This document shows positions 34,987 to 61,092 of a DNA stretch of 64,000 bases, in pieces. How positions within the stretch are numbered: the first letter of the stretch is position 1; the number at the start of each line of letters is the position of its first letter. The DNA lies in contig NZ_CP017267.1 of assembly GCF_001870205.1 (NCBI RefSeq), positions 546,501 through 610,500 of the forward strand. The letters run 5' to 3'. Source of the DNA: Vagococcus teuberi (GTDB taxonomy: Bacteria > Bacillota > Bacilli > Lactobacillales > Vagococcaceae). The notes below the pieces were generated by a model that saw only the letters and a program-made list of their open reading frames with translations, ran no database searches and had not been told where the DNA came from. The translations under genes and the position numbers were made by a program.

Positions 34987-35117
34987 GGTTAATAAGAGTA
35001 ACTTATAGTGGGGATTTATTTTTTTTAATATCTATCTGGATATGTTATGGATAACTTGATTATTTTATGATAAACTATTTTTAGATAACGGTTTCATAAA
35101 AATAGGAGGTCTGATAG

Positions 35118-36137
35118 ATGGAAACAATAAAAGTAGGTATCGTTGGATTAGGGAGATTAGGTAAGGTTCACGCTCACAATTTAAAAGGTAAAGTAGCTAA
35201 TGCCACATTGTATGCTGCATGTAGTCCAGTTTCAGAAGAGCTAGAGTATGCTAAAAATAACTTAGGTGTACAAGTTACCTATACTGATTATGAAGAGATG
35301 GTTAAAGATGAACAACTTGATGCGATTTTTATTGTGTCACCATCAGGGTTACATTGCTCTCAAATACAACTTGGATTAAAATATGGAAAACATGTTTTTT
35401 CTGAAAAACCAATCGGACTTAATATTGAAGAAATTAATGAAACGATTCAAGTTATTAATCAATACCCAAACCAAAAATTTATGCTTGGATTTATGCGACG
35501 CTTTGATACGGATTATATGTATGCAAAAGAACTTGTTGATAATGATGAACTGGGTGACGTAACATTAATTCGTTGTTATGGAATTGATCCAAGTGAAGGT
35601 TTAGAAAGTTTTGTTAAATTTGCTGGAGCAAGTAATAGTGGTGGTTTGTTTGCTGATATGTCAATTCATGATATTGACTTAGTTCGTTGGTTTACAGGTC
35701 AAGAAGTAAGTAAAGTTTGGGCAATCGGAAAAAATACTACTTATAAAGAACTCGATGAAGTAGGAGAGCTTGAAACAGGTGCTGCCATGCTTCAGTTAGC
35801 TGATAATACTATGGGAATATTAGTAGCTGGTAGAAATTGTCATCATGGGTATCATGTTGAAACAGAATTAATTGGAACAAAAGGCATGCTGCGTATAGCA
35901 CAAGTACCAGAAAAAAATCTAGTCACTATTATGAATGAACATGGCGTTGTTCGGCCAACCTCACAAAATTTCCCAGAACGTTTTTCTCAAGCCTTTATTA
36001 ATGAAGCAAATGAGTTTATTGAGTGTATTTTAACTGATAGACAGCCTAGTATTAATGCAATTGACGGATTAGAATCGACAAAAGTAGCACTTGCTTGTAA
36101 AGAATCATACGAAAAAAATCAACTAGTTACAATATAA
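35118..36137 (+). CDS. Gfo/Idh/MocA family oxidoreductase (inositol 2-dehydrogenase-like)
   Basis: A 339-residue NAD(P)-dependent dehydrogenase. The N-terminal Rossmann fold begins 'KVGIVGLGRLGKVHAHNL', the family motif EKP is in 'VFSEKPIGLN', and the active-site region includes 'GGLFADMSIHDIDLVRWF' with the conserved Asp and His. Members oxidise inositols and other sugars. No inositol catabolic genes are nearby, so the substrate is open. It is preceded by AGGAGG and stands alone, ending at a strong two-way terminator. Confidence 0.88.
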   Translation: METIKVGIVGLGRLGKVHAHNLKGKVANATLYAACSPVSEELEYAKNNLGVQVTYTDYEEMVKDEQLDAIFIVSPSGLHCSQIQLGLKYGKHVFSEKPIGLNIEEINETIQVINQYPNQKFMLGFMRRFDTDYMYAKELVDNDELGDVTLIRCYGIDPSEGLESFVKFAGASNSGGLFADMSIHDIDLVRWFTGQEVSKVWAIGKNTTYKELDEVGELETGAAMLQLADNTMGILVAGRNCHHGYHVETELIGTKGMLRIAQVPEKNLVTIMNEHGVVRPTSQNFPERFSQAFINEANEFIECILTDRQPSINAIDGLESTKVALACKESYEKNQLVTI

Positions 36138-36140
36138 ATA

Positions 36141-36191
36141 CAACAAAACAACTCCCTTGGAACATATTGTTTCAAGGGAGTTGTTTTGTTG
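36141..36191. terminator. Strong bidirectional terminator
   Basis: A near-perfect stem of about 18 base pairs: CAACAAAACAACTCCCTTG (36141-36159) with CAAGGGAGTTGTTTTGTTG (36173-36191). It lies between convergent genes, with T-rich sequence on each strand. Confidence 0.92.
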
Positions 36192-36199
36192 TATCTTGT

Positions 36200-36589
36200 T
36201 TACAATTCTCCAGTTAAAAACTGTGCTTTACCAAATGCAAAGCTCCAATCTTCATCATCATTAACAACTAAGTTAATCATAACGTCTTCTTTCCGAATAC
36301 CCAATTCATCATTTAAAGCAGTCACTAAATTGTGGTAAAACTGTTTTTTTTGTTCAGTTGTTCTGGGGCGAGTAATAAGACTAAATAGAAGAACATCTTT
36401 TGTTCGTTCAAATCCTAAACCAGTATCCAATATTTGCATTTCATACGGTTCGTGTTGGCTGACTATTTGGTATCTATCACCAATAGGTGCATCAAAGGCT
36501 TCTAACATCACTCTATAGGAAATTTTTAGAATTTCTTCTATTTCTTCTTGTTGTCGTCCTTTTATCATATCAATTTTCATTAATGGCAT
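36200..36589 (-). CDS. Tautomerase family protein
   Basis: A 129-residue protein of the 4-oxalocrotonate-tautomerase/MIF superfamily (Tautomerase_2 type). Proline follows the initiator Met, giving the catalytic N-terminal Pro1 after Met removal. It continues 'LMKIDMIKGRQQEEIEEILKISYRVMLEAF'. A trailing block 'TTEQKKQFYHNLVTALNDELGIRKEDVMINL' is typical. The substrate is unknown. It is a single gene, convergent with the dehydrogenase. Confidence 0.88.
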   Translation of the reverse strand: MPLMKIDMIKGRQQEEIEEILKISYRVMLEAFDAPIGDRYQIVSQHEPYEMQILDTGLGFERTKDVLLFSLITRPRTTEQKKQFYHNLVTALNDELGIRKEDVMINLVVNDDEDWSFAFGKAQFLTGEL

Positions 36590-36741
36590 TAAAAGATTCC
36601 TCCCATAACTTAGTGATTAAAGTATCTCAAATTTAACCAACATAATCAAATTGAATGCATCAGTTTATTAAAAGTTAATCAAAAATATTTCTTTTATACT
36701 TAAAAATATATGGTTAGATATAAAAAAATATATATTATGAT

Positions 36742-36770
36742 TTGACATAAATGTATAAAAGTAGTATGAT
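36742..36770 (+). promoter_or_regulatory. Promoter of the broken HTH regulator
   Basis: TTGACA (36742-36747), 17-base spacer, TATGAT (36765-36770). This is one of the best promoter matches in the window. Confidence 0.82.
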
Positions 36771-36816
36771 TTTTCTATAGCATGTGAAAAGGTAAACAAT
36801 AGATCGAAAGTAAGTG

Positions 36817-37810
36817 ATGATAGTGAATATTGAACGTTTTATAGAAGCAAGGAGACAAAAAGGGTTTTCGCAAAATGACTTAGCAGAAAATATTTGCACG
36901 CAAGCAACGTTAAGTCGGTTTGAAAATAACTCTCAAGTTCCAAATTTAAAGATACTAATTAAACTGTGTGAAAGATTGGATTTACCTTTGAGTGAGTTGT
37001 TTCCTAAAGTTGGAATTCGATACACTGATGTAATTGAAATATTAAATCAAGCAGAATTTTTATTAATAACCAGCGAATATCAAAAAGCAAAGAATTTAAT
37101 GGAAACAATTGATATTTGCAAAATCGAAGACAATGATATTTTGTTAAGATTTGGTATTTTCTGTTTTGTTTTAATTTGTTTTTACAGCAGTTTTTTTTAC
37201 AGCTGTATCGTTCTATAGATTAATGGAAACAATTGATATTTGCAAAATCGAAGACAATGATATTTTGTTAAGGTATCATTATTTGACAGGTTTTTTAATG
37301 GTTTTTCAACATGCTAAAATTACCGATATTTTGTTTAATTTTGATCAAATTTTATTAGACAATGGAGAAACTGAAGATATCTATCATCTACTGGCTTACA
37401 CTGGAATTGGGATGGTATTTGCCAGAGAGAATGATGTGGAAAAAGCAGAGTTTTATTTTAATAAAGTGTTGGAAAAAATCTATCGTTATCCTATAAAAAA
37501 AGTAGAAGATACTTGGCGAGTATTAAATATTGTCTATCAATGTGGTGAGTTTTATGCTAGCATTCATGAGCTCGAGGCTAGTAATGTTTTATTAAATTAT
37601 GCGATAAAAATATGCTCAGATAATCACGTGACGTATTATTTAGCTCGTGCTGCGGCACAGCTTGCGCAAAATGCAATAGAAGAAAAGAAAGATAAAAATG
37701 ACATTTTAGAATTAATTTACGATGCGAGAGCTTATGCCAAAATTAATCGTAATGAGATTAAGTTAAAAGAGTTAAAGCAATTAGAAATTGCTGTTAAGAA
37801 AGGATTGTAG
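36817..37810 (+). pseudogene. HTH-TPR (Rgg/PlcR-like) regulator interrupted by a 124-bp insertion
   Basis: The N-terminal HTH_3 domain (about 4-60; 'NIERFIEARRQKGFSQNDLAENICTQATLSRFENNS') is followed by TPR-like helices, the plan of peptide-sensing RRNPP-type regulators. After 'METIDICKIEDNDILLR' the frame runs into 'FGIFCFVLICFYSSFFYS' and stops at 37218. The same 'METIDICKIEDNDILLR' then restarts at 37223 and continues to 37810. Removing 124 bases (one repeat copy plus the 71-base spacer) restores one frame of about 289 residues. It lies 4 bases before apbE. The start could be GTG 36814, ATG 36817 or GTG 36823. Confidence 0.85.
37096..37272 (+). repeat. 53-bp perfect direct repeat flanking a 71-bp insert
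   Basis: Copies lie at 37096-37148 and 37220-37272, identical over all 53 bases. The 71 bases between (37149-37219) are very T-rich and include the small inverted repeat ACAGC ... GCTGT near 37184-37206. The offset of 124 is not a multiple of three, so the insertion breaks the regulator gene. Confidence 0.95.
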
Positions 37811-37813
37811 GCC

Positions 37814-38743
37814 ATGCAAAATAAAGTGGTCAAACAATTACATTTGATGGGAACAGTAATAGATATTACTGTAGTAGGAAATAAAGCGGAAGAAGTAGTT
37901 GAGAAGACAGTTAGAATGCTAGAGTATTATGAAAAAATGTTTAGTGCTAATGACGATACTTCAGAATTAATGAAAATAAACTTTAATGCTGGAAAAACAG
38001 ATACCATGGTTTCTCCTGAGCTATACAATCTTATTTCCCTAGGCAAGTATCATAGTATTCAGGATGATAGTTTTTTAAATATAGCGATTGGCCCTTTAAT
38101 AAAAGAGTGGAAAATTGGGTTTGAAGGAGCGTTAGTTCCATCAAAAGAAGTCATTGAAAGTCTATTAAGAAAAACCAATCCAGAAAAAATTATTTTAAGT
38201 CCTAATACACATAGTATTTATTTAGAGGATAAACAAATGGAGATTGATCTAGGTGCATTAGCAAAAGGATTCATTGCTGATAAAGTAGTTGAGTATTATA
38301 AACAACAAGATATAACGTCGGCTATTTTAAATCTTGGTGGTAATGTGGTGGTCTATGGAGAAAGTCATCATCCAGATGGTTATTTTAGAGTAGGAATCCA
38401 ACATCCAACAGAACCACGCTCTCATTGTTTAGTAACTATTCAAGCTAAAAATGAATCGATTGTGACGTCTGGTATTTACGAAAGAACGCTAACAGTTGGA
38501 AAAACAATCTATCATCACATAATTAATCCAAAGACAGGATATCCAATAGAAACAGATGTCGCTAGTTTGACGATTATTTCTAAACGATCAGTTGATGGAG
38601 AAATATGGACAACACGTCTATTTGGTAAAAATACCAAAGATATTATTAGTACTGTGAATCAACTTGATGCTATTGAGTGTGTTGTTATAGATAAAACAAA
38701 TAAAGTATTTACTTCAGAGATGATTAAAACAAAACTAATGTAA
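37814..38743 (+). CDS. apbE: FAD:protein FMN transferase ApbE
   Basis: A 309-residue flavin transferase that attaches FMN through a phosphoester to Ser/Thr in target flavoproteins. Conserved blocks are 'MGTVIDITVVG', 'EIDLGALAKGFIADKV', 'AILNLGGNVVVYG', 'VTSGIYER' and 'HHIINPKTGYPIETD'. No signal peptide or lipobox is visible, so it looks cytoplasmic, unlike the lipoprotein ApbE/Ftp forms. No FMN-binding-domain target is in the window. It is followed by two flavin reductase genes, suggesting a flavin-linked redox operon. Confidence 0.92.
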   Translation: MQNKVVKQLHLMGTVIDITVVGNKAEEVVEKTVRMLEYYEKMFSANDDTSELMKINFNAGKTDTMVSPELYNLISLGKYHSIQDDSFLNIAIGPLIKEWKIGFEGALVPSKEVIESLLRKTNPEKIILSPNTHSIYLEDKQMEIDLGALAKGFIADKVVEYYKQQDITSAILNLGGNVVVYGESHHPDGYFRVGIQHPTEPRSHCLVTIQAKNESIVTSGIYERTLTVGKTIYHHIINPKTGYPIETDVASLTIISKRSVDGEIWTTRLFGKNTKDIISTVNQLDAIECVVIDKTNKVFTSEMIKTKLM

Positions 38744-38759
38744 AGAGAGGAAGATTTTT

Positions 38760-39368
38760 ATGGATAAGTATATAGCGATAGTAGGGACAAATTCTGATCA
38801 GTCAACAAATCGAAAATTATTGTACTTTATTAAAGATTACTTTAAAAACGAGGCAGATATTGAAATAATCGAAATCAAAGAGTTCCCTATGTTCAATAAA
38901 CCTGACGATGGAAATTTACCAAGTATTGTAAAAGAAGTAGCGCAAAAAATAGAAGAGGCAGACGGTGTCATTATCAGTACACCGGAATATAATCATGCCG
39001 TTCCAGCAGCATTAATGAATGCGTTGAATTGGTTATCTTACAATATTTACCCATTTGTGGATAAACCAGTTATGATTACAGGAGCTTCATATGGTACGTT
39101 AGGTTCATCAAGAGCACAAAGTCATTTAAAACAAATGCTTGATTCACCTGAGTTAAAGGCTAGAACAATGCCGAGTTCGGAATTTCTATTAAGTCACTCA
39201 CTTCAAGCTTTCGATGAAAGTGGAAAATTAGTAGATGAGAATCAAATTCAAAAATTACATAGTCTATTTTTAGACTTTAAGCATTTTGTCTATATGACCA
39301 ATCAATTAATGAGTGCTCACAAACAAAATAAAAAAGAAGCAGAAAACTTTTCATGGGAAAATATTTAA
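38760..39368 (+). CDS. NAD(P)H-dependent FMN reductase family protein
   Basis: A 202-residue flavodoxin-like protein. The N-terminal phosphate loop is 'IAIVGTNSDQSTNRKLLYFI'. The FMN-reductase motif is 'STPEYNHAVPAALMNALNWL', followed by 'KPVMITGASYGTLGSSRAQSHLKQML'. It reduces FMN or uses FMN to reduce other acceptors. It is a paralogue of the next gene, sharing the same order of motifs, and lies 16 bases after apbE. Confidence 0.9.
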   Translation: MDKYIAIVGTNSDQSTNRKLLYFIKDYFKNEADIEIIEIKEFPMFNKPDDGNLPSIVKEVAQKIEEADGVIISTPEYNHAVPAALMNALNWLSYNIYPFVDKPVMITGASYGTLGSSRAQSHLKQMLDSPELKARTMPSSEFLLSHSLQAFDESGKLVDENQIQKLHSLFLDFKHFVYMTNQLMSAHKQNKKEAENFSWENI

Positions 39369-39380
39369 GGAGGAAGTCAA

Positions 39381-40583
39381 ATGAAACTAGTAGGAATTGT
39401 AGGATCAAATGCTGATAAATCATATAATCGTACGTTGTTACAATACATAAAAAAACACTTTTCTGATAAATTTGATTTAGAATTAATCGAAATTAAAGAT
39501 GTTCCATTGTTTAATCAAAGTAATGATCAAACAAATACGCCAGTGATTCAGTCAATAAACCGTAAGATTTTAAATGCAGATGGGGTTATTATTGCAACAC
39601 CTGAACATAACCATACAATACCAGCCAGTTTAAAGAGTGTATTAGAGTGGTTATCATTTAAAATACATCCACTAGAAAACAAACCAGTAATGATTATTGG
39701 TGCTTCATACTATGACCAAGGTTCTTCACGAGCTCAATTACATTTACGACAAATACTTGATGCACCAGGTGTTCATGCTCTAGTCATGCCAGGAAATGAA
39801 TTTTTACTTGGAAAAGTACGCGAAGCTTTTGATGACAATAATAACCTAAAAGACGCTAAAACTGTTGAGTTTTTAAGTAATGTATTAGATAAATTTTTAC
39901 GATATATTGAAGTAATATCTGAGTTAGAAGGAACGAAAAAGCCTGAACTGGAAAAAGAAGATTTATATTGCGAAGGGTCAATCGATACCACAATTGATGG
40001 AGTTGACAAAGGAGCTGATGACTGGGTTGAACAAGCATCAGAAAAAGTTCAAGCAGTAGAAGGTGATACTTATGTCAAATTAAATCGTGGTATATTAACG
40101 GTTAATCAGTTAAATCATTTCTTTGCCTCAATGCCTATGGAATTAACCTATGCAGATAATAATAATCAATTTTTATATTATAATTACACAAAAGAAGATA
40201 AAGATATGTTAGCCTCACGTCATCCAAGTCAAGTAGGGAACCCTCTAGCCTATTGTCATCCAGAAAAAGCATTAAACGGTGTGAATTGGGTTGTTCAGCA
40301 GTTACGATCTGGAGCTCAAGATTGCGTAAGAGTACATGTTCCAACGCATGGACCAGATAAATTTGTTGTACATAATTATCAAGCAATTCATGATGATGAA
40401 GGAAATTATGCTGGTATAAACGAATACATATTAGATTTTAAACCAATTGTTGATTGGTATTTAAAACAAACAGGTCAAACTTTAACACCAGGAACAGATA
40501 CAGTCAGTGGAGCTTCAGAATCTTCCAAACATACTGCTTCATCTGATGCGGATGCAGTCTCAAGTGCGTCAAAAACAGAATAA
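39381..40583 (+). CDS. FMN reductase fused to a C-terminal PAS-like domain
   Basis: A 400-residue protein. Residues 1-185 repeat the FMN-reductase domain of the upstream gene ('VGIVGSNADKSYNRTLLQYI', 'ATPEHNHTIPASLKSVLEWL'). A linker of about 45 residues leads to a PAS-like sensor domain (about 230-365; 'NHFFASMPMELTYADNNNQFLYYN', 'GNPLAYCHPEKALNGVNWVVQQLRSG', 'YAGINEYILDF'). That domain resembles the DUF438/PAS type. The C-terminus is Ser/Ala/Thr-rich. The fusion suggests redox or haem sensing linked to flavin turnover, which is inference. Confidence 0.88.
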   Translation: MKLVGIVGSNADKSYNRTLLQYIKKHFSDKFDLELIEIKDVPLFNQSNDQTNTPVIQSINRKILNADGVIIATPEHNHTIPASLKSVLEWLSFKIHPLENKPVMIIGASYYDQGSSRAQLHLRQILDAPGVHALVMPGNEFLLGKVREAFDDNNNLKDAKTVEFLSNVLDKFLRYIEVISELEGTKKPELEKEDLYCEGSIDTTIDGVDKGADDWVEQASEKVQAVEGDTYVKLNRGILTVNQLNHFFASMPMELTYADNNNQFLYYNYTKEDKDMLASRHPSQVGNPLAYCHPEKALNGVNWVVQQLRSGAQDCVRVHVPTHGPDKFVVHNYQAIHDDEGNYAGINEYILDFKPIVDWYLKQTGQTLTPGTDTVSGASESSKHTASSDADAVSSASKTE

Positions 40584-60776: not shown

Positions 60777-61092
60777 GAATTTTTTTGATGAGATGAAAAA
60801 ACTTTTTCTTGTGAAAGACATGGATGAATTTGAAGAAATAAAAGAAGATATGTTAGAACATATAGAGATTAAGCTAGAACAAGGTGAACCAGTCGAGGTT
60901 ATTTTGACAAAACTTGGAACGCCTAAAGCAATTGTTGATGCGTTTTATGAGGATAAACGATTAAATAAAGCAATGCAGTATGAAACTGATATTATTGGAA
61001 TTGAAGAAGTACAAATCGTTGCGCTTCAAGGGAAAAAAGATAAGCTATATAAACAGGTATCCCGATTGAAACGTGGGGGGTCGTTACATTAA
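60763..61092 (+). CDS. HAAS/DUF1700 domain protein
   Basis: A 109-residue protein. Its N-terminal part matches the HAAS (DUF1700) domain: 'ENFFDEMKKLFLVKDMDEFEEIKEDMLEHIEIKLEQGEPVEVILTKLGTPKAIVDAFYED'. HAAS proteins occur with PadR regulators. The usual membrane segments of longer DUF1700 proteins are absent. ATG 60763 follows AGGAGG and overlaps padR. It ends two bases before the next start. Confidence 0.87.
   Translation: MEKIENFFDEMKKLFLVKDMDEFEEIKEDMLEHIEIKLEQGEPVEVILTKLGTPKAIVDAFYEDKRLNKAMQYETDIIGIEEVQIVALQGKKDKLYKQVSRLKRGGSLH

Follow-up and report, generated by a model that had tools for sequence, protein, structure and literature searches.

The 124-bp insertion that splits a regulator gene ahead of a flavin operon in Vagococcus teuberi is most probably an error of genome assembly and not a genetic switch. 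Three observations form the basis of this reading, namely the geometry of the insertion, the intact gene in relatives, and repeated damage in unrelated genes of one assembly; the lack of read support and the route through polishing are what we infer rather than observe. In the proposed mechanism, the draft would hold a spurious local duplication built from noisy read sequence. The part of the duplication that matched good reads would have been corrected, giving a perfect 53-bp repeat, and the part to which no read would align would have been left as noise, giving the 71-base spacer. The living strain would carry an intact PlcR-like HTH-TPR regulator of ~290 residues heading an apbE/FMN-reductase operon.

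The site lies in a 64-kb window, the whole stretch of DNA described at the outset, within a 2.18-Mb genome of two contigs with a completeness of 100 (Table 1). Sequence comparison confirmed the identical repeat copies and the T-rich bases between them that the original prediction had described. The repeat is exactly 53 bp long, the flanking bases differing between the copies on either side, and 40 of the 71 spacer bases are T. The copy-to-copy offset of 124 bases is of the form 3n+1 and so places the HTH half and the TPR half out of frame, as had been claimed: the HTH frame encodes a hydrophobic stretch where it crosses the spacer and terminates at a TAG (37216-37218) near the spacer's end, and no stop interrupts the TPR frame between 37175 and 37810. 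A seeded search of the window returned this pair as the sole direct repeat of at least 35 bp within 2 kb (five short tandem arrays were tallied apart), which argues that it did not arise by chance. No inverted repeat of at least 12 bp pairs the ends of the 71-base insert, and the TPR half alone matched no Pfam family. Promoter-like sites around the regulator, where one such site is listed upstream of the gene, number 7 against a shuffle mean of 8.8, which is no excess.

Table 1. Features of the split regulator locus and the operon that follows it (positions within the window).
Feature	Coordinates	Strand	Evidence or remark
Promoter-like site TTGACA-17-TATGAT, upstream of regulator	36742..36770	+	11/12 matches
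HTH half of regulator, 134 codons, GTG start (ATG at 36817)	36814..37218	+	HTH_3 8.6e-13
53-bp direct repeat, copy 1	37096..37148	+	sequence identity
T-rich spacer, 71 bp, possibly a degraded copy of the DNA preceding copy 1	37149..37219	+	anchored alignment
T8 run	37191..37198	+	inside 37175-37215, where HTH and TPR frames are both open
53-bp direct repeat, copy 2	37220..37272	+	sequence identity
TPR half of regulator, 195 codons from internal ATG within the repeat	37223..37810	+	intact relatives
ApbE-family FMN transferase gene, next in operon	37814..38743	+	PF02424 4.5e-72
NADPH-dependent FMN reductase-like gene	38760..39368	+	PF03358
FMN reductase-PAS fusion, DTVSGAS flavinylation-like motif in C-terminal tail	39381..40583	+	PF03358, PF13596; motif by eye

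The gene is whole wherever else it was found. In the two nearest relatives (G012 and G009) the site is single-copy and the regulator forms one frame of 290 codons, in good agreement with the restored frame of about 289 codons expected from the sequence at the outset. A profile search of 29 family genomes detected the regulator in 10, all of the same genus; in this genome it is in two pieces, and in the nine others it is one uninterrupted frame of normal length. It is likewise one frame in 10/10 named loci, whose record titles are Vagococcus, Amphibacillus (2), Desemzia (2), Atopococcus, Oceanobacillus, Enterococcus, Marinilactibacillus and one Roseburia. The regulator of G004 had been suspected of being broken by a single TAA, which proved to be the terminal stop of a 300-codon frame. 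With the insertion removed, the stretch 36814-37810 differs from G012 at one base, which is present in both repeat copies (37146/37270). A connection between this base change and the insertion event was considered and rejected, since the same base is common to G009 and G001 and is therefore uninformative on the event.

The intact gene probably encodes a PlcR-like HTH-TPR regulator of the flavin operon. In G012 an XRE-type HTH occupies the N terminus of the protein (HTH_3 2.5e-12), and the Pfam TPR signals fall below cut-offs. A structure model of the V. bubulae regulator (mean pLDDT 73.9, with most of residues 1-49 below 50) is all-helical, in keeping with a C-terminal TPR-like domain. Its best PDB match is PlcR (3u3w; E 2.8e-6, 15% identity, TM 0.61 when normalized by query length), and ComR and Rap are among the further matches. 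The combination of HTH_3 with a TPR-like helical domain is common to the Vagococcus protein and the PlcR/ComR-type (RRNPP) regulators, the likeness being drawn from a model whose HTH part is of low confidence.

An assembly error is favored by the presence of similar lesions in other, unrelated genes of this one assembly. We surveyed 40 stretches of this genome and 40 from each of G009 and G012 (800 kb each); arrays of more than two repeat pairs, which by eye are mostly repeat-protein arrays, were left out (2, 4 and 4 clusters, respectively). In 860.5 kb of the V. teuberi assembly there are 12 isolated close direct repeats, nine from a first scan and three more from a second, and six of these split identified genes: the regulator, glnA, rplO, a PTS IIC gene, an ABC-F ATPase gene and a gene for a RluA-family synthase. 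An assembly error had been one option in the original prediction, and with six identified genes split by similar lesions it is now the favored one. In glnA (L101 6593-8002) the break consists of a 27-bp repeat around a 30-bp spacer, and the genome has no glutamine synthetase match other than the two resulting pieces. The rplO gene (L15; L167 16737-17260) lies ahead of secY in an apparent ribosomal-protein operon. A 21-bp repeat separated by a 62-bp spacer divides it into pieces that match positions 1-51 and 44-143 of the L15 model. Duplications with offsets of 44 bp and 43 bp split the RluA-family pseudouridine synthase gene (L089 13799-13887) and the EttA/Uup-like ABC-F ATPase gene (L102 15673-15752). 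The ABC-F copies differ in a T run (T5 versus T4), and among the best 25 families listed for each ABC-F piece no resistance model was above its cut-off. In the PTS ascorbate IIC gene (L091 14866-14995) an 18-bp repeat is accompanied by a 94-bp low-complexity spacer that resembles read noise, being made up of AC, AG, AT and A runs.

Further duplications lie at L092 4302-4575 and L095 5144-5385; one sits at the 3′ terminus of a gene for a LytTR-like regulator and leaves its frame intact, and the other is intergenic, ahead of a prfC-like gene. An exact 256-bp tandem duplication was also observed at L091 19442-19954; the frames stop inside it and the gene was not named, and it is therefore uncounted as a split. 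The repeat in L166 was likewise uncounted, as it is at the boundary of two frames resembling separate genes. The duplications in L089 and at L091 19442 are clean tandems without a spacer. The damage is patchy, since a second 400 kb sampled contained no isolated repeat of at least 25 bp and two shorter ones, one of them splitting rplO. An overall noisy assembly was considered and rejected: only 19 frame-shifting indels were counted in G009 open frames over 315 kb aligned, which indicates good base-level quality and damage that is local. At window position 61076 the strain and G009 differ by one base in a run of G that lies within a G009 open frame, a possible homopolymer error or frame shift.

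The same sites in relatives could be compared for the regulator and six of the other eleven repeats, and each was found there in single copy: the glnA and RluA-family sites in G009, G012 and G001, the L092 site in G009 and G012, and the rplO, L095 and L102 sites in G012. Both places in L091 and the repeat at L089 8353 had no match in the sampled stretches of the relatives, and the two flanks of the L105 repeat map to different places in G009. Nor was any of the relatives' own repeats found to split an identified gene (0/6 in G009 and 0/8 in G012, 800 kb each). Eight of these 14 repeats are within a spanning open frame and two are tRNA genes; the others fall between frames, in sequence without a family match or outside the family scan. 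At G009 L170 17556 a frame of 185 codons lies between the copies, and neither of the two short stretches there has a family match; the repeats outside the family scan are those in L169, L136 and L141.

The origin of the spacer was sought broadly. The original prediction had noted that the 71 bases have no visible copy elsewhere in the window, and this extends to a much wider search: no good copy was found in the strain's own genome, in 14 genus, 29 family or 395 sampled order genomes (sets that each include this genome), or among plasmids and phages. Two order-level matches (44.6 bits each) were dismissed as T-rich partial matches in unrelated sequence. Among viral contigs a 22-mer from the spacer was unmatched, and a 19-mer matched three contigs without further likeness. 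Variants of the spacer pattern with 2-3 mismatches occur in the genus about as frequently as a reversed control. Inside the window the longest exact match to a possible template is 13 bases, a length reached by 52/100 shuffles, and local alignment of the spacer with the regulator gene and its relatives gave nothing clearly beyond shuffles (lowest 34/300).

In an alignment anchored on the repeat, the DNA running into copy 1 matches the spacer at 54 of 63 aligned columns with 33 gap columns. That score was reached by 0/3000 shuffled spacers, 5/3000 shuffled flanks and 9/1500 composition-matched places in the genome, and 317/6000 unmatched genomic places scored as high. By plain local alignment with the upstream flank 128/1000 shuffles were as good, which is not significant. 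In the comparison with composition-matched places the downstream flank showed no likeness (119/1500). The resemblance to the upstream flank is weak, and suggestive rather than proven. Of the other spacers tested against composition-matched places, L095 (0/1500) and L092 (10/1500) resemble downstream DNA and L101 (13/1500) upstream DNA; all of these figures, including that for the window, are for the better of two flanks. The statement that the insertion is not a simple tandem duplication is not supported, because the 71 bases may have been copied from neighboring DNA and then degraded. The single base that separates the gene from that of G012 leaves little time for real divergence of duplicated DNA. 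So recent a duplication should not have decayed to the likeness seen, and leftover read noise could look this way, which favors an artefact.

The main rival to an assembly error is a real, recent, strain-specific complex duplication, arising by template switching or microhomology-mediated repair, that inserted 124 bp and knocked out the regulator. We regard it as unlikely. The perfect 53-bp copies lie near each other and the site is single-copy in both nearest relatives, as such an event would predict, and complex duplications with inserted sequence at the junction are described, in human and mammalian cells, in the portion of the literature we draw on (PMC2621351). A recent event should, however, give a clean templated spacer, and only a degraded likeness was found; six genes damaged in one assembly, rplO and glnA among them, are also hard to square with a viable wild isolate. 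Under this explanation recombination or slippage between the 53-bp copies could remove the insertion, which would make it a reversible mutation without making it an evolved switch. Loss of rplO, where tolerated, comes at a heavy growth cost, and it is hard to accept that rplO and glnA are both broken in one living strain. As a counterpoint, a real strain growing on rich medium could do without the regulator and possibly even without glnA or rplO, and the good base-level quality, the patchy damage, the weak spacer likeness and the clean tandems all run counter to an assembly error. Were the lesions real as a set, an active process would be duplicating short stretches locally and leaving one part of the copy heavily mutated, disabling the regulator, glnA, rplO and others. 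We consider that improbable, and our search of a limited library found no description of such a duplication process in bacteria.

Far less can be said for an evolved phase-variation switch that would turn the regulator off and on by gain and loss of the 124 bp, which the original prediction had put forward as slippage or recombination between the repeats. The length and spacing of the copies would permit deletion, and in Salmonella the wzy locus is reversibly lost between 113-bp direct repeats (PMC12074656). In both systems long perfect direct repeats could delete the intervening DNA; for the wzy locus, in the part of that report considered here, both states and reconstitution are reported, whereas the Vagococcus site shows one state only, with every one of the nine other genus genomes that have the gene carrying it uninterrupted. 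Regain would moreover need a template for the 71 bases, of which the strain's own genome has no good copy. The idea of a switch is accordingly unsupported, and we hold it to be very improbable.

Equally little weight attaches to a mobile element that entered the gene, duplicated a 53-bp target and left a scar or relic. An insert flanked by direct repeats is what such an event would leave, but neither a good copy in any of the genomes, plasmids and phages searched nor an inverted repeat at the insert's ends was found, and the earlier suggestion of a small new element or its scar is unsupported for the same two reasons. The least credible explanation is a functional split form, in which a frame slip at the T8 run would allow a share of the protein to be made at full length, with additional residues, or the HTH half would work alone, hydrophobic tail included: the two frames do overlap as open frames around the T8 run and the HTH frame does read a hydrophobic stretch through the spacer, but T-rich DNA would be expected to give open hydrophobic frames from composition alone, and none of the relatives examined has the split form.

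An assembly error, in comparison, has close parallels. Where only one of the copies of a repeat carries an error, reads map to the correct copy, and the faulty one is left uncovered and uncorrected (PMC8812927), and assemblies from a single assembler show medium-to-large-scale errors (PMC8442456). As set out in the sections of these two sources used here, unpolished repeat errors in long-read bacterial assemblies resemble the present case in leaving one copy uncorrected, in their indels and homopolymer errors, and in the broken genes that result; they differ in that they fall inside true repeats and at contig ends, whereas the Vagococcus repeat is itself suspected to be spurious. Our search of a limited library returned no described case for the regulator locus.

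The downstream genes are of an already known kind. The order regulator, apbE, FMN reductase gene and FMN reductase-PAS-like gene is kept in 10/10 named loci, and the putative control of the flavin operon by the regulator fits this conserved gene order. A pattern search found a D-x-x-S-G-A-S-like motif in the tail of the protein in 9/10 named loci, often more than once and up to three times in one relative. The tail motif or motifs, in a gene adjoining apbE, make it likely that the FMN reductase-PAS protein is covalently flavinylated. Lactococcus FMN_red proteins with such a motif are flavinylated by their cognate ApbE (PMC11334425), and apbE beside an FMN_red with a C-terminal motif is common to both systems; relative to the operons as presented in the relevant part of that paper, the Vagococcus operon adds a second FMN_red gene, a PAS domain and a regulator in front. 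Separately, the tract from about 35000 to 40500 is nearly identical to that of G012 (at 37.5-40.5 kb, 0-3 differences in each 500 bp), whereas at 54-60 kb 15% of the aligned part differs (85% identity), a pattern suggesting that the regulator and flavin operon were recently exchanged between species.

A perfect short repeat around a spacer that matches nothing well, together with a core gene in two pieces, offers an inexpensive warning of misassembly in genomes designated complete. If the lesions are real, they would indicate an unusual error-prone duplication process. If they are an artefact, as we think most probable, it would be wrong to annotate glnA, rplO and other genes of this assembly as pseudogenes, and the regulator is to be read as an ordinary intact gene.
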